64,000 nt of DNA, from positions 1-64,000 of the forward strand of contig CANFXC010000001.1 in the NCBI GenBank assembly GCA_947450765.1, written 5' to 3'. The stretch is from Comamonadaceae bacterium. GTDB lineage: Bacteria > Pseudomonadota > Gammaproteobacteria > Burkholderiales > Burkholderiaceae_C. Both the position numbers and the translations under genes were made by a program. The stretch's first letter is position 1. Every line of letters starts with the position of its first letter. Shown piece after piece: positions 124-12,050 of the stretch. Below the pieces are notes generated by a model. That model saw only the letters and a list, made by a program, of their open reading frames with translations, did not search any database and had not been told where the DNA came from.

Positions 124-359
124 TAAGCCTCGTATTCTAGCCTAAATAATGCGCTATCCGAGAGAATTGAACAAATCAAACGCAAACCCTGCATCGAAGA
201 AGCTTCCAGACATAGACGCCTTTATATTGCCAATAGAAGAAAAACCATCTTCCATCAAGTGACAATCGAGTGCAATAGCCCGTCACTATAATTTCAGCCA
301 AATCAAGCAGTGGTCAGGTCTCTGAAGTACGGCCGTTCTTGCAACTCAGAACTTTTCAG

Positions 360-1172
360 ATGAAAAAACTGGTCTTATGTGCCGACGATTTTGCATTGCA
401 TGGCCCTGCCTCGAAGGGCATTGCGAGGCTTGCGCAAAAAGGCTGCATCACCGCGACCAGTGTCATGGTCTTGTCCCCGCGCTGGCCCTCGGATGTCAGC
501 TTGATCGAGCCCCTCAGAGGGCATATCGACGTTGGGCTGCACTTGGACTGGACCAGCGAATTTGCAGTCAGCGCCGGCCACGGCATGCGTCTGTCGCGGA
601 CCATGTTGTCAGCTTGCTTGAGGCAAATCAAGCCCGCACAGGCCATGCCAGTGATTGATCGCCAGCTGAATGACTTTGAGAAAGTCTGGCAAGCGCCACC
701 CGACTTCGTCGATGGGCACCAGCATGTGCAGCAATTTCAGGGCATACGCGAAGCGTTGGTCCAGGCACTTGCCGAGCGCTATGGCAGCGCCAGCACACGG
801 CCCTATCTGCGAATTTCCAAGTTACCCGCATTGCAAGCTGACTTCAAGGCCCGCGTTATTGCAGCGATGGGGGCCGAATCGCTGCGCCGCCTGGCGGGCG
901 TGAGCGGCGTACCTTGCGCCCCGGCTTTGTCCGGTGTTTATGACTTCAGCGACAGACCTCTCAGCTACGGCCAACGGATGAGCGGCTGGCTGAGAACCAG
1001 CCCAGAAGGATCCATAGTGATGTGCCACCCCGCAGAAGGCGTGGACGACCATGACGAGATTGGTCGCGCCCGGCTGAACGAATACCACTACCTGGCTGGC
1101 GCCGAATTTCAGAAACAACTCAAAGCACGCGGCATCCAACTGGTTCGCGGTTCACGCCTGTACGAAAAATAA
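360..1172 (+). CDS. ChbG/HpnK (YdjC-like) family deacetylase
   Basis: LCADDFALHGPASKGI and DGHQHVQQF motifs; likely start is the internal ATG at 360 rather than 339. Confidence 0.8.
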   Translation: MKKLVLCADDFALHGPASKGIARLAQKGCITATSVMVLSPRWPSDVSLIEPLRGHIDVGLHLDWTSEFAVSAGHGMRLSRTMLSACLRQIKPAQAMPVIDRQLNDFEKVWQAPPDFVDGHQHVQQFQGIREALVQALAERYGSASTRPYLRISKLPALQADFKARVIAAMGAESLRRLAGVSGVPCAPALSGVYDFSDRPLSYGQRMSGWLRTSPEGSIVMCHPAEGVDDHDEIGRARLNEYHYLAGAEFQKQLKARGIQLVRGSRLYEK

Positions 1173-1177
1173 ATCAC

Positions 1178-2743
1178 GTGGAAAAACCAACCGCATCTTC
1201 GACTTCTCTGGCCGCCTCACACGCCGCATCGACGTCCTGGTTTCTGCTTGCCGTGCTGTGGTGCGTTTTGCTGCTACTGGCAGCTTGGCGTCCTTTGGCG
1301 CTACCCGATGAAGGTCGCTACGCCGAGGTTGGCCGCTGGATGCTGGTCTCCGGCGATTGGCTCACGCCACGCCTGAACGGCATTCCTTTTTTTCACAAGC
1401 CGCCGCTACTCTACTGGCTTGAAGCCATATCCATGGGCATCTTCGGCGTTCATGCTTGGGCTGCGCGGTTGGTGCCGGCACTGCATGCCGGCTTGATGTT
1501 GACCACCCTGTATATCGCTTCACGAAACATCGGCGATGAACTCTTGGCGCGACGTGCCACGTTGATGCTCGGAACCAGCTTGTCATTTTTGATCGGCGGG
1601 CAATACATCAACCACGACATGTTGGTAGCCTGCTGGATCGGTGTCGCCATCTGGTCGTTTGCTGCGGCATTCATGCAGGGCGAACGGCCCGACGTGCGCT
1701 TGGCGCTGATCGGTTTTGCGGCCTGCGCCTTGGGCGTCCTCAGCAAAGGCATGATCGGCTTTGCTCTGCCCGGCTTGGTCTTGTTGATCTGGCTGTTCTG
1801 GACGCGTCAACTGCGCAAGATCCCGCGACTACCTTGGCTGCGCGGACTGACGGTGTTTGGCGTGCTGGCGCTGCCGTGGTTTGTGCTGGTACATCAACAA
1901 TTCCCAGACGTACTGAACTATATGTTCGGCACGCAGCAGTTCAGTCGCTTCACTGGGACAACATTCAACAACGGCAGAGCTTGGTGGTTTTACCTCTTGT
2001 GCTTGTTACTGCTGCTGTTTCCTTGGGTCTTATTTGTTCGCCCAACGCGCTTTGCAGCGCTAGAGGCCCGTGAGAAAGCCTGGCTTTCTTTGCTGTGGAT
2101 TTGGACAATAGCCATCGTCGGATTTTTCTCCATTCCAACCTCTAAGATCATCGGTTATGTGTTGCCGGTCATGCCTGCGTTGGCCTTGCTATCAGCCATC
2201 GGCTACGGTGAATGGTTAAAAAACAAACCGCACATCAGCCGCCGATTGCTGCCCAGCTTGGCGTTGTTGGCCACGCTCACGGCGGTGGGTGCGACAGTGG
2301 TTGCCGGGCACTTCAGCCAGAAGCAAACGAGCGCCGACGTGGCCCAGACCTTGGCCTGCGAAGCGTCCCCGCAAGACAGGGTCTATGCGCTGGACGGATT
2401 TCCGTACGACTTGCCGTTTTATACCGGTGCGACAAAACCCATGATCATCATTCAGGACTGGGATAAAGTCCGCCGCAGCGCAGGCGACAACTGGCAGCGC
2501 GAACTCTTCGAAGGTGCCCATTTCGATGCGACAGCTGGCAGCATCTTGCAAGGGTCAGAGGTGCTGGCAGCAGCGAGCCAAGGCGCCGGCAACTGGTTGC
2601 TGTTGCCAAGTGCCACGCCAAGCCAAGGTCGCCCTCCGGGCTGGACGTCCGTGCAGGAAGGCCTCAACTGGGCGCTACTACGCTCAGCGGGCAAAAGCCC
2701 AGAAGCGGCTCAACAAAAAGGTTTGGCCGGCTGCAAGCACTAA
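1178..2743 (+). CDS. Glycosyltransferase family 39 / ArnT-like membrane protein
   Basis: Multi-TM protein with PDEGRYAEVGRWMLVSGDWLTPRLNGIPFFHKPPLLYW, typical GT39/ArnT N-terminus; GTG start. Confidence 0.85.
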   Translation: MEKPTASSTSLAASHAASTSWFLLAVLWCVLLLLAAWRPLALPDEGRYAEVGRWMLVSGDWLTPRLNGIPFFHKPPLLYWLEAISMGIFGVHAWAARLVPALHAGLMLTTLYIASRNIGDELLARRATLMLGTSLSFLIGGQYINHDMLVACWIGVAIWSFAAAFMQGERPDVRLALIGFAACALGVLSKGMIGFALPGLVLLIWLFWTRQLRKIPRLPWLRGLTVFGVLALPWFVLVHQQFPDVLNYMFGTQQFSRFTGTTFNNGRAWWFYLLCLLLLLFPWVLFVRPTRFAALEAREKAWLSLLWIWTIAIVGFFSIPTSKIIGYVLPVMPALALLSAIGYGEWLKNKPHISRRLLPSLALLATLTAVGATVVAGHFSQKQTSADVAQTLACEASPQDRVYALDGFPYDLPFYTGATKPMIIIQDWDKVRRSAGDNWQRELFEGAHFDATAGSILQGSEVLAAASQGAGNWLLLPSATPSQGRPPGWTSVQEGLNWALLRSAGKSPEAAQQKGLAGCKH

Positions 2744-3058
2744 GGCCAACAACAGGGCCGGCATGTCTGACCAGCCAAAACCACGCAGCATCAGCATGAA
2801 GATCAGCTCATTGCAGACAAAACCGGCCACAGCAGTCACAGAGAAGCGTCGCAGACTTTGCAGTAAGGTGATCGTCGTATCCTGAAAACTCAGGCGACGA
2901 TGCCCGACAAAGCTGACGCAAAAAGCGACCGCAAAACCAACGGCATTGGCCAGCTCTGGCAGCATCAGGGCCTTGGTCAAAGCAAACACCAGTACATGCG
3001 TCAGTGCCGCACTGGCACCCACCAACAAGAACCACACACCGACAAGACGCGACGCCAT
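2684..3058 (-). CDS. GtrA family protein
   Basis: About 124 aa, four TM segments, GtrA-like; next to a family 2 glycosyltransferase. Confidence 0.8.
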   Translation of the reverse strand: MASRLVGVWFLLVGASAALTHVLVFALTKALMLPELANAVGFAVAFCVSFVGHRRLSFQDTTITLLQSLRRFSVTAVAGFVCNELIFMLMLRGFGWSDMPALLLALVLAAGQTFLLSRFWAFAR

Positions 3059-3067
3059 AAGCCGGCT

Positions 3068-4060
3068 TTAGAGCAAGGGCGCGTCGGTCTGCTGAGTGCG
3101 TTGCACTGGCAGACCGGCACCGTCACGTTGGCGCACCAGAAAGGTCGGCCGCTGTTTCACCTCTTCATAAATGCGCCCGACATATTCGGCCACGATGCCA
3201 AGGCCCAACATTTGAACGCCGCTCAAAAACATCGTGCTCACCATGATGGTGGCGTAGCCTGGCACCTCAATACCCCAAGCGAAATAATCAATCGTTATCC
3301 AAAAACCGTAAGCAATAGACAACACAGCCATCGCCAGCCCCAGCAAAGCTAACAAGCGCAAGGGCGCAATTGAAAATGCGGTGAAGCCGGTCAAGGCCAA
3401 TTTCACGGACCCTATCAGCCCGAAATTACTCTTTCCTTCTTGACGCAACAATGGTTCGTAGTCAATCGCTATGCTCGGAAAACCAACCCATGCATACAAA
3501 CCCTTCATGAAACGATTGCGCTCAGGCAAGGCATTCAGCGCACTCACCACCGCGCGGTCCATCAGCCGAAAATCTCCGGCATGGGCTGGAATCTGCACGC
3601 GATTGCCGAAGTTCACCAGTTCATAAAACAAGCCGGTGAGATGACGCTGCAAAGGTGACTGATCAAGGCGCGAGCGCCGTACAGCGTAAACCACATCCAT
3701 GCCGTTCTGCCACTGCACCAGCATCTCAGGCAACAGCGACACCGGATGCTGACCATCGGCATCCATCAATACAACCACATCACCCCGCGCAGCTTGCAAA
3801 CCAGCCGTCAAGGCAGATTCCTTGCCGAAATTTCGTGACAACTCCAAGACCACAACCTCAGGGTGAATCTCGCTCAAACGGCGTGCAACCTTCAGCGTGT
3901 TGTCACGACTGCCATCGTCAATAATGATCAGTTCAATGGCCGTGAAAAGTCCGTGCAAGGCCTTCAAAATGTCGGGGACAACATTGGGTAGATTGCCAGC
4001 CTCATTGAAGGCGGGCAACACGCAGGAAACAGTGGGTTGTCGTAGTTGTCGAAAAGTCAT
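3068..4060 (-). CDS. Glycosyltransferase family 2 (GtrB/DPM1-like)
   Basis: CVLPAFNEAGNLP, DDGSRDNT, LMDADGQHP motifs plus C-terminal TM segments. Confidence 0.88.
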   Translation of the reverse strand: MTFRQLRQPTVSCVLPAFNEAGNLPNVVPDILKALHGLFTAIELIIIDDGSRDNTLKVARRLSEIHPEVVVLELSRNFGKESALTAGLQAARGDVVVLMDADGQHPVSLLPEMLVQWQNGMDVVYAVRRSRLDQSPLQRHLTGLFYELVNFGNRVQIPAHAGDFRLMDRAVVSALNALPERNRFMKGLYAWVGFPSIAIDYEPLLRQEGKSNFGLIGSVKLALTGFTAFSIAPLRLLALLGLAMAVLSIAYGFWITIDYFAWGIEVPGYATIMVSTMFLSGVQMLGLGIVAEYVGRIYEEVKQRPTFLVRQRDGAGLPVQRTQQTDAPLL

Positions 4061-4207
4061 AGGTCGATATCATGCCAAATAAATTTATCGTCATTGAATA
4101 AATCTGTTGAGACTCGTCAGATCGTGCCACCTAACCCAAACAGCGCTGGGAGCATCTGCATTAAATTTGCATGAACACCGATGCAGGATCGGTATAGCCG
4201 GCATAGC

Positions 4208-4232
4208 GCGCTATCAGCGCTATCAGCGCTAT
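4208..4232. repeat. Short tandem repeat, 9-bp unit GCGCTATCA, about 2.8 copies
   Basis: gcgctatca gcgctatca gcgctat read directly. Confidence 0.8.
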
Positions 4233-4283
4233 CGCTGAAAGAATCGATGCTACATTGAACGATTGAATAGATTTGAAGGATTT

Positions 4284-4631
4284 ATGAAGAAAATTATTCT
4301 GTTATTACTATTAACGATTACTTTCGCGTCTAGTGCGTTTGCCGACAGAGATCGCGGTGAGCGCAGGGATGAATTCGACCGTCGTCCTCATCCGGACGCT
4401 CGTTGGAACAACGATGCCGGCTGGTTGTTACCGGCGATCATTGGTGGTGCATTGGTCTATGGCGCGATCAACAGCCAACCACGACCGCCCGTCATTTTGC
4501 AACAACAGCCACAACAACAGTATTACCCTGTCGAGCCCAGCAGACCCCAACAAGCGCCTATGGGCTTTCACTGGGAGCAAATCTTAGATGCCAACTGCAA
4601 CTGCTATCGCGTCGTCATGGTCAGGAACTGA
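4284..4631 (+). CDS. Small secreted hypothetical protein (signal peptide, Pro/Gln-rich)
   Basis: MKKIILLLLLTITFASSAFA signal peptide; internal ATG at 4284 more likely than 4263. Confidence 0.6.
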   Translation: MKKIILLLLLTITFASSAFADRDRGERRDEFDRRPHPDARWNNDAGWLLPAIIGGALVYGAINSQPRPPVILQQQPQQQYYPVEPSRPQQAPMGFHWEQILDANCNCYRVVMVRN

Positions 4632-4681
4632 CAGGCTGCCTGCTAGCGCAATGTCAATCTAGGTGAGAGGCCCTACCAAAG

Positions 4682-4714
4682 AAAAAGCGACTGTCTTTTG
4701 AACAGTCGCTTTTA
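4682..4714 (-). terminator. Intrinsic terminator for the intron-containing tRNA
   Basis: Minus strand aaaagcgactgt-tcaaaag-acagtcgcttttt. Confidence 0.75.
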
Positions 4715-4718
4715 TAAG

Positions 4719-4998
4719 TGGTAGGGCGTGAGTGACTTGAACACTCGACCAAAGGATTCTGGTTTGTGTAGCTTTCACTACTCCCTGGACTATGCCTTCA
4801 TCGTAGCTTTCGCCTTAGACGGGCGCCGTCTAGTCTCTACACCTTCAAAGTGATTTCTCACTGAGCTTGGCTCGGCATTGGCGTATGCATGACTGCACTT
4901 AGCTTTCACCGAATTTGACGCCATTCACACGAAGAGTTTCCTACCTCGGTGCACAATTTTCATGAGTCCTCTGCTCTAACCAACTGAGCTAACGCCCC
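4719..4998 (-). tRNA. tRNA-Ile(CAU), interrupted by a group I intron (exons 4962..4998 and 4719..4758)
   Basis: Joined exons GGGGCGTTAGCTCAGTTGGTTAGAGCAGAGGACTCAT|AATCCTTTGGTCGAGTGTTCAAGTCACTCACGCCCTACCA form a full 77-nt cloverleaf. Anticodon CAT; body resembles tRNA-Ile2 (GACTCATAATC, TTGGTCG, GTTCAAGTC); CCA encoded. Confidence 0.93.
4759..4961 (-). ncRNA. Self-splicing group I intron, 203 nt, ORF-less, Azoarcus-like (IC3-type)
   Basis: 5' exon ends CAT, with candidate guide GTG downstream in the intron giving a terminal U.G pair. Core CAAATTCGGTGAAAGCTAAG, GAAGGTGTAGAGACTAGACGGC and GAAGGCATAGTCCAGGGAG; P3 GGCGTC/GGCGCC; P7 AGACTA/TAGTC; P9 GTAG-TGAAAG-CTAC; final G. Confidence 0.93.
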
Positions 4999-6814: not shown

Positions 6815-7831
6815 CTATTTGCTATGGCTCAGAGCCGTGCTGACTAATTTAGACGTGATATCGACGATTTGAATCATTTTTTCGTAAGGCATGCGCATCG
6901 GGCCGATGACGCCCAGCGTACCGACGACTTGACCATCAACCTCATAAGGCGCGGTCACCACGGACAGCTCTTGGTAGGGGATGACTTGGCTCTCGCCGCC
7001 AATGTAAATACGCACGCCTTCGGCTCGGCTGGAAACATCCAGCAGCCGCATGAGTTGCGCTTTTTGCTCAAACAAGTCAAACAGTTTGCGCAGGCTGCTC
7101 ATGTCGCCAGAAAAGTCACTGACAGCCAGCAGGTTGCGCTCACCCGAGACCACCACCTCTTCGCTGGACTCGATCACTTCAGCGCTGACTTTGACGGCAG
7201 CCTGCATCAGGCTGGCAATTTCGCCACGCAGGGCTTCGACCTCATTTTTAAGCCGCTCGCGCACGACTTCCATGGCCATGCCGGCGTAGTGCGAATTCAA
7301 AAAATTGGCGGCTTCAATCAGCTGGCTTTGCGAAAAATCGGTTTCCGTGAAGATCACGCGGTTTTGCACATCGCCGTCGGGCGACACGATGATCACCAAC
7401 ACCCGCCGGTCTGAGAGCCGAAGGAATTCAATGTGCCGAAACACCGACGTGCGCTTGGGCGCCATCACCACGCCAACGAACTGCGACAGGTTGGAAAGCA
7501 TGTGGGCGGCGTTGGTCAGTACTTTTTGCGGCTGGTCCGGCGCCAACTGATGGCCACCCATCAAGCCCGAGCCAAGCGGCCCCGGTTGCAGCGTGAGCAT
7601 GGTGTCGACAAACAGCCGGTAACCTCTGGCCGTGGGCACCCGACCTGCGGAAGTGTGCGGGCTGATGATCAGCCCTTGCTCTTCCAAGTCACTCATCACG
7701 TTGCGGATAGTGGCGGGCGAGAGTTCCACTCCCGACGCCTTGGACAGCGTGCGCGAGCCCACCGGCTGGCCGTCGGCAATGTAGCGCTCAACCAGCGCCT
7801 TCAGCAATAACTTCGCACGATCATCAAGCAT
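6815..7831 (-). CDS. hrcA: Heat-inducible transcription repressor HrcA
   Basis: [31 protein letters not shown]...[19 protein letters not shown]; start placed at 7831 because the longer ORF overlaps nadK antisense. Confidence 0.95.
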
Positions 7832-7880
7832 GCTGGCGATTCTACGGAGCCAAGCTGTCCGGTTGTGATGTAATTTAAAA

Positions 7881-8756
7881 ATGAAGTCAAAATTTCGCCA
7901 CGTTGCCCTGATTGGCAAGTACCACGCCCAAGGCTCGCGGTCGGCGCTTGAAGGCATCGCGCAGTATTTGGGCGCGCAGGGTTGCGAGGTGGCGATTGAA
8001 GAAGACACCGCCAGCAACGCCGGCATCACCAGCTATCCCATCCTCAATGTCGCGCAAATTGGCGCTCAATGCGACTTGGGCTTGGTGGTCGGCGGCGACG
8101 GCACCATGCTCGGGATTGGTCGGCTACTGGCGCAGTTTGGCGTGCCCTTGGTCGGCATCAACCAAGGCCGGCTGGGATTCATCACCGACATCGCTTTTGA
8201 GGAATACCAAACCACGCTGGCGCCCATTTTGCAGGGCCATTACGACGAAGACCCACGCTGGATGATGCAGGCCAAAGTTGTGCGCGACGGGCACTGTGTC
8301 TTCAATGCCACCGCCATGAACGACGTGGTGGTGAACCGCGGTGCCTCGGCCGGCATGGTGGAGTTGCGCGTTGAAGTCGACGGCCGCTTTGTGGCCAACC
8401 AGCGCGCTGACGGTTTGATCATCGCGTCCCCCACCGGTTCCACGGCTTACTCTTTATCGGCGGGTGGGCCTTTGCTACACCCGTCGATTGGCGGCTGGAT
8501 TTTGGTGCCCATCGCGCCACACAACTTGTCGAACCGACCCATCGTGTTGTCAGACCAAGGCGAAGTGGCCGTTGAAATTGTGGCCGGCCGCGACGCCAGC
8601 GCCAACTTCGACATGCAAACCCTGACCAGCCTGTTGCATGGCGACCGCATCATCGTTCGGCGCTCTGAGCATCAGGTGCGCTTTTTGCACCCGGTCGGCT
8701 GGAGCTACTTTGACACCTTGCGCAAAAAACTGCACTGGAATGAAGGCCTCGCCTGA
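7881..8756 (+). CDS. nadK: NAD kinase
   Basis: [36 protein letters not shown] motifs. Confidence 0.95.
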
Positions 8757-11324: not shown

Positions 11325-12050
11325 TCAGCGCCAAGCCGCCCACAGCAGCGACAGGCCCGAAAAAAGCATCAGCGCATCCAGAATCCAGGCAAACGCGCTG
11401 GGATGTAGCCGCAGCACCATCACTTTCCCTGCGTAGGTTCCCAGCATCAAAGATGCGCCTACGATCAGGCCCTGCAACAGGGTACTGAAAGGCATCGCGC
11501 CCAGCTGCCAAAAAGTCGCCACTTTGCTGACGTAAAGCGCCAAGGAACTGGCTGCCTCGGTCGACAGAAAGGCACCTCCGGTCAGGCCATAGGAGGTAAA
11601 AACGGGGACGCTGAGCGGCCCCGTTGAAAGTACAAGGCCGGTGAGGAAACCAATAAAAGCCCCCGCAACTGAAACCGCCCATAAGTTCAAGCGTCGACCG
11701 CTACGGACATGCCAGCGTCTGATAGGAATCATGGCCAAGAAGAACAAGCCAAGCACCGCCTCGATGGCACTGGGCGGCAAGGCGAGTAGCGTGCGCGCGC
11801 CGAGGGCTGCAGCTGGAACGCCGGGGACCGTATAGGCCGCAACCGCTTTCCAATCGACGAGCCGCCACCAAGCGGCCACGCGCGCCATGTTGCCCATGAC
11901 GGCGGCGACGGCCATGATGGGCACGGCCTGTTTGGGTCCATAGGTGTAAACAAGAACAGGCAGCAACATCAAGGACGACCCCGTCCCGACGATGCCGCTC
12001 AGGCAACCCGCGGCAAGCCCAACGGCCAATACAAAAAGATAGGACATCAT
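11325..12050 (-). CDS. TauE/SafE (TSUP) family membrane protein
   Basis: Start at MMSYLFVLAVGLAAGCLSGIVGTGSSLMLLPVL; multi-TM. Confidence 0.8.
   Translation of the reverse strand: MMSYLFVLAVGLAAGCLSGIVGTGSSLMLLPVLVYTYGPKQAVPIMAVAAVMGNMARVAAWWRLVDWKAVAAYTVPGVPAAALGARTLLALPPSAIEAVLGLFFLAMIPIRRWHVRSGRRLNLWAVSVAGAFIGFLTGLVLSTGPLSVPVFTSYGLTGGAFLSTEAASSLALYVSKVATFWQLGAMPFSTLLQGLIVGASLMLGTYAGKVMVLRLHPSAFAWILDALMLFSGLSLLWAAWR

Follow-up and report, generated by a model that had tools for sequence, protein, structure and literature searches.

Two halves of a tRNA, separated by 203 nt and lying on the minus strand downstream of hrcA in a Comamonadaceae bacterium, raise the question of whether they belong to a working gene interrupted by a self-splicing intron and, if so, how the intron came to be there. 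The stretch of DNA analysed, referred to here as the window, is 64,000 nt long. With high confidence the locus is read as the native site of a working tRNA-Ile(CAU) gene that is interrupted by a self-splicing group I intron of the Azoarcus kind; this reading is built upon the anatomy of the gene, covariation in the intron core, an empty site in a genus-mate, single-copy status and a discordant intron tree.

The interpretation given in the first-pass annotation, a tRNA-Ile(CAU) gene carrying a compact, Azoarcus-like group I intron of 203 nt, is supported. With introns allowed, ARAGORN returned exactly the proposed halves of 37 and 40 nt around the insert on the minus strand (4998-4719), folded the joined halves into a cloverleaf with the loop CT-CAT-AA, and placed the intron directly 3' of the anticodon, between tRNA positions 36 and 37. 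The further hallmarks that had been listed, namely the exon-terminal U, the guide GUG, P3 (GGCGUC/GGCGCC), P7, the P9 hairpin and the terminal G, were all located (Table 1). No open reading frame was found inside the 203-nt intron, which thus has no homing endonuclease. A sigma-70 scan upstream of the split tRNA gave no promoter reaching its threshold; a TTACAAT box just upstream of tRNA-Ile is common to genus-mates. In some relatives the intron placement by ARAGORN was wrong (for example, the tRNA-Gln calls in L239 and L246), and these were read by eye.

Table 1. Coordinates of the split tRNA-Ile(CAU) gene, its intron and its neighbours in the window, and of orphan tRNA-Ile(CAU) halves in relatives
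Feature	Location	Strand	Basis
5' exon of tRNA-Ile(CAU), 37 nt, ends ...GGACTCAT (U36)	4962..4998	-	ARAGORN, intron option; identical to the intronless alleles of genus-mates L184 and L245
Group I intron (203 nt), with guide GUG (nt 8-10) and G as its last base (nt 203)	4759..4961	-	Rfam RF00028; boundaries from ARAGORN and empty site
3' exon of tRNA-Ile(CAU), 40 nt, CCA encoded	4719..4758	-	ARAGORN; intronless genus-mates
Internal guide sequence GUG, intron nt 8-10, P1 with exon CAU	4952..4954	-	GTG here in 41/41 CAT-exon introns
P3 helix, nt 40-45 (4922-4917) with 135-140 (4827-4822)	4822..4922	-	100% of cells paired; compensatory changes in 2/6 pairs
P7 helix, nt 127-131 (4835-4831) with 170-174 (4792-4788)	4788..4835	-	100% paired, 45 introns
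P9 hairpin, intron nt 181-194, GAAA loop	4768..4781	-	98.7% paired; compensatory changes in 4/5 pairs
Intrinsic terminator of tRNA transcript	4683..4713	-	13-bp stem then T-run; also present at the intronless L184 locus
hrcA, conserved upstream neighbour of tRNA-Ile(CAU)	6815..8029	-	Pfam HrcA 3.2e-66; adjoins tRNA-Ile in L245, L244
Orphan tRNA-Ile(CAU) 5' and 3' halves, G384	L238:977-1016 and 11351-11397		
Orphan tRNA-Ile(CAU) 5' half, G190	L237:17926-17886		
Orphan tRNA-Ile(CAU) 5' half, G185	L241:16364-16324		
Orphan tRNA-Ile(CAU) 5' half, G222	L242:882-842		
Orphan tRNA-Ile(CAU) 5' half, L099	L099:270-306		

Thirty-three pairs were named in the intron core, over P3, P4, P5, P6, P6a, P7, P8 and P9. 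All of them form in the window intron, which possesses the P3-P9 core and the P3/P7 pseudoknot of group I introns. Among 45 distinct tRNA-Ile introns these helices are 98.6% paired, as against 26-44% in controls with slid partners, and 15 of the 33 pairs have been altered on both sides by compensatory change; these figures together exclude a chance origin. The covariation score is 0.310, compared with 0.116 in shuffles, none of which reached the observed value (0/500), and at most 0.057 with partners slid. P7, which by homology is presumed to be the guanosine-binding helix, shows a double change from AU to UA at nt 131-170 in five of the 45 introns. RNAalifold independently recovers P2-P6, P8 and P9, together with a covarying P9.0 that adjoins the terminal G, and the GAAA loops on P2 and P9 occupy columns that are invariant or nearly so across the 45 introns. 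Folding of the single intron sequence gives only a modest z of -2.27, and the structural reading does not depend on it.

At the splice sites, the U of the 5' exon lies opposite a G of the guide and the intron ends in G, again as in group I introns. Of 94 introns from different tRNAs (tRNA-Ile, Arg and Leu), 83 have a guide that fits their own 5' exon, whereas 2000 permutations of guide and exon gave a mean of 48.7 matches and a maximum of 63 of 94. CAU exons are accompanied by the guide GUG (41/41) and CCU exons by GGG (18/18). Just before the guide, AUU at intron nt 5-7 can pair with AAU of the 3' exon, forming P10.

Detection of the gene depends on the settings used. Searched with an E-value threshold, the Rfam model Intron_gpI (RF00028) matches the window intron over its full length (model 1-253/253) at 49.1 bits and E 1.3e-11, one bit lower than the gathering cut-off of 50 bits, and the check for a covariance match suggested at the outset thus gave a full-length hit. 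This is the sole Intron_gpI match in the 3.04-Mb genome at that threshold. The expectation that annotation without intron models would overlook the gene was borne out, as the split tRNA-Ile was detected neither by ARAGORN in its default mode (introns off) nor by Rfam at gathering thresholds. Since the score falls just under the cut-off, the lack of a gathering-level hit would wrongly have led to rejection of the intron.

A precise empty site bears on the history of the insertion. In the genus-mate L184 the same locus bears an intronless tRNA that is identical to the window exons at 77/77 positions; the same gene lies upstream, with 76% identity to the window along a 1.57-kb flank, and the downstream flank is 82% identical along 0.52 kb, and the 203-nt insert is the sole difference at the tRNA. 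Introns of Limnohabitans and Rhodoferax share 94-95% identity with that of the window, against about 71-75% for HrcA, yet the intron of the genus-mate G206 shares only about 81%; in the intron tree, the genus-mates G206 and G222 lie in another clade than the window. Four near-identical introns (L099, L081, L134 and L208) reside in host tRNAs with three T arms other than that of the window, indicating that the intron crossed genera without the whole tRNA. Gain of the intron in this lineage was most likely horizontal and precise, leaving the exons unchanged; the intron may have entered by reverse splicing or, the exons being identical, by short-tract recombination. The window copy is a native, single-copy and probably essential intron-split gene, the intron of which was gained recently.

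Relatives of this locus carry what appear to be traces of integrative elements. Of 55 intron-bearing tRNA-Ile loci, 18 are preceded by an orphan 5' half of the host tRNA, compared with 0 of 29 intronless ones, the intronless loci being drawn from the host family only and the intron-bearing loci from a wider set; the corresponding Fisher p of 1.8e-4 ignores relatedness and is descriptive only. When 401 genomes were searched for orphan 5' halves independently of the intron, seven places emerged, and in six of these, G013 being the exception, an intron-bearing tRNA-Ile follows. The orphan halves listed in Table 1 adjoin hrcA, with a complete intron-split tRNA-Ile 150-260 nt later. The host tRNA-Ile of G384 is broken: the 5' half ends in CTCATAA, the 3' half restarts at CTCATAATCC 10.3 kb on, and a complete intron-split tRNA-Ile lies between the two. 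The left end seen in G384 is also present in G190, G185 and G222, and in G190 a second att-like junction is followed by a second split tRNA-Ile. Tyrosine integrases are encoded near the split tRNA in L237 (G190; Phage_integrase), L055 and L032. It is well supported that the split tRNAs of some relatives are located on integrase-bearing elements which disrupt tRNA-Ile in its anticodon loop and bring with them a complete, intron-split replacement. The putative element in L237 also encodes large ORFs, possibly of the restriction-modification kind, and a SMODS (CBASS-type nucleotidyltransferase) gene is located just downstream of the split tRNA-Ile (L237:16043-16825, G190).

A tentative proposal, which we consider possible rather than likely, is that in betaproteobacteria introns of the Azoarcus type have been spread in part by integrase elements that destroy the host tRNA-Ile(CAU) and supply a complete intron-split gene in its place, that the intron shields the carried tRNA, and that isolated copies such as that of the window are offshoots. 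The association with elements is the well-supported part of this proposal, and the protective function is hypothetical: because the intron splits the halves of the attachment site, the element's integrase may use the tRNA that the element carries only poorly. A role of the intron as a full block to integration was rejected, as an element end in G185 is joined to CTCATAAAATTTGTG-intron-3' half (L240, about position 1450, minus strand), so that an intron beginning with AA can still be entered. The element of G185 appears to have entered an already intron-bearing tRNA-Ile at CTCATAA, which is a counter-case to protection.

The window copy itself might have come in such an element together with its intron-split tRNA-Ile, the element ends having been lost later. 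In favour of this, the orphan-half arrangement is found at those 18 of 55 intron-bearing loci; in the nearest relative, Limnohabitans Bal53 (L099, 95%), the locus adjoins hrcA and is preceded, at a distance of 197 nt, by an orphan 5' half of the host tRNA; and tRNA-Ile and tRNA-Arg(ACG) are 4.6 kb apart in the window as against about 28 bp in three relatives. The native order appears to be hrcA, tRNA-Ile(CAU), tRNA-Arg(ACG). Arrival in an element is nevertheless unlikely, since the window contains no orphan 5' half of the host tRNA, no integrase domain was found in the ten ORFs around its tRNA, and its 3' exon is of the local type and not that of L099. The intronless orthologue L184, moreover, has both flanks, and the locus has therefore not been replaced; a present location of the window copy inside an integrative element was likewise rejected on the synteny with L184. 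The interval between tRNA-Ile and tRNA-Arg(ACG) (window 124-4718) contains YdjC-like, mannosyltransferase-like and glycosyltransferase ORFs and is possibly a small island older than the intron.

Ancestry of the intron at this site, followed by loss from the majority of genus-mates, is very improbable. Same-site tRNA-Ile introns are found across betaproteobacteria, as ancestry would predict, but within the genus only three of 61 genomes carry an intron at the window site, and the other two introns belong to a different clade. Besides these, tRNA-Ile(CAU) genes in which a group I intron follows U33, and so precedes the anticodon, were encountered in L189 (G201, of the window's genus), L040, L080, L089, L124, L144 and L240:13487-13164, so that a single genus has introns at two points of this anticodon loop (after U33 and after the anticodon).

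Whether the cell relies on splicing turns on tRNA identity and copy number. The two other CAU tRNAs of the genome are, by inspection, of the initiator and elongator-Met types, the initiator type being marked by C1/A72 and three G-C pairs in the anticodon stem. When the spliced tRNA was compared with E. coli, the best partial matches were annotated tRNA-Ile (87.5% over positions 7-62), and the few full-length matches (77.9%) were tRNA-Lys. In most bacteria, decoding of AUA requires tRNA-Ile(CAU) modified by TilS. A TilS-type ATPase domain is encoded in the genome, and AUA makes up 11 of 281 Ile codons in 13 sampled ORFs; three of these 11 AUA codons are in the glycosyltransferase ORF of window 124-4718. 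An intact tRNA-Ile(CAU) elsewhere, which the first-pass annotation had named as evidence against its interpretation, was looked for and not found in this genome (86.7% complete). The same holds for G325, G185 and G190, each of them called 100% complete and possessing a related split copy, so that at least in these three the split tRNA-Ile must be spliced. G222 and G174 possess an intact tRNA-Ile(CAU) alongside the interrupted one. Judged from sequence, in vivo splicing of the window tRNA-Ile is almost certainly needed, a case that is strong but not closed at 86.7% completeness. That the split copy is instead a silent, degenerate relic that does not splice, with a separate intact tRNA-Ile(CAU) doing the work, can scarcely be credited: the incomplete genome, the Rfam score slightly under the cut-off and the paired copies of G222 and G174 would allow it, but every named core pair is intact, no intact copy was found in the genome itself or in the three called 100% complete, whose split copies are closely related, and the exons equal the intronless allele throughout.

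For the functional, intron-interrupted gene, catalysis and lysidine modification may be predicted as follows. Transcription of the precursor would run through to the terminator, and the folded intron would pair its guide GUG with exon CAU to form P1. A guanosine would be bound in P7, cleavage would take place after U36, and the exons would be ligated at the terminal G of the intron. C34 of the spliced tRNA would presumably be converted by TilS to lysidine, allowing AUA to be read.

A probably essential tRNA gene, the only one found in the genome that can decode AUA, is hidden from default annotation. Its single-copy status and precise empty site would make it a clean natural case for group I splicing in vivo and for an intron gained recently. 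For the Azoarcus ribozyme, a laboratory standard that spreads without a homing endonuclease, the orphan halves beside the split tRNAs of relatives implicate integrative elements as one of the carriers and hint at a possible advantage in having the intron; if this is true, a self-splicing intron would protect an essential gene that travels with the element.

An exact 21-nt word of the core is found in at least 119 places in GTDB genomes of Betaproteobacteria, Omnitrophota, Patescibacteria, Chloroflexota, Rhodothermales and others, in tRNA-Ile, Arg, Leu and more, and Intron_gpI is matched in 22 of 201 genomes of the host family. Novelty was accordingly overstated in the first-pass annotation. 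One review places bacterial tRNA group I introns chiefly in cyanobacteria and lists few from alpha- and betaproteobacteria (PMC4033280), and the many phyla represented among these places make the family wider than stated there. Matches to the core pattern also occur in records titled Nanoarchaeota and Parachlamydia (L108, L135), and a record titled as a Klebsiella pneumoniae MAG (L147), probably a misnamed bin, has a tRNA-Ile intron of betaproteobacterial type.

The group I intron prototype in bacterial pre-tRNA-Ile is documented (PMC3984707; PMC4033280) and classic, and the window intron is a new, well-supported member of this known Azoarcus-type family. A literature search for the intron core sequence gave no match in published papers. 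The likeness of the window intron to the Azoarcus intron is presumed by way of betaproteobacterial homologues such as that of Azonexus (L129), with which the window intron compares at about 80-83%. Like the group I (IC3) intron of Azoarcus sp. BH72 pre-tRNA-Ile, it is hosted by tRNA-Ile(CAU), is inserted in the loop after the anticodon, is about 205 nt long without an ORF, and has the same core and GAAA loops on P2 and P9; the host organism is different and several helix sequences differ. Other bacterial tRNA group I introns (Arg CCU, Leu UAA) have the 21-nt core word too; they likewise interrupt the anticodon loop 3' of a U and have a guide that fits the exon, but the tRNA, the guide and the insertion position differ.

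On group I introns in tRNA-integrating elements, nothing on point was found in the literature searched, which omits most subscription journals. In the usual tyrosine-integrase island, as catalogued by Islander, the tRNA is restored from a fragment in attP (PMC4383910). Like those islands that have the tRNA anticodon loop as attachment site, the elements of the relatives cross over in the anticodon loop of tRNA-Ile(CAU), within CTCATAA; they differ in that the host tRNA stays broken and the tRNA brought by the element is a whole gene split by the intron.
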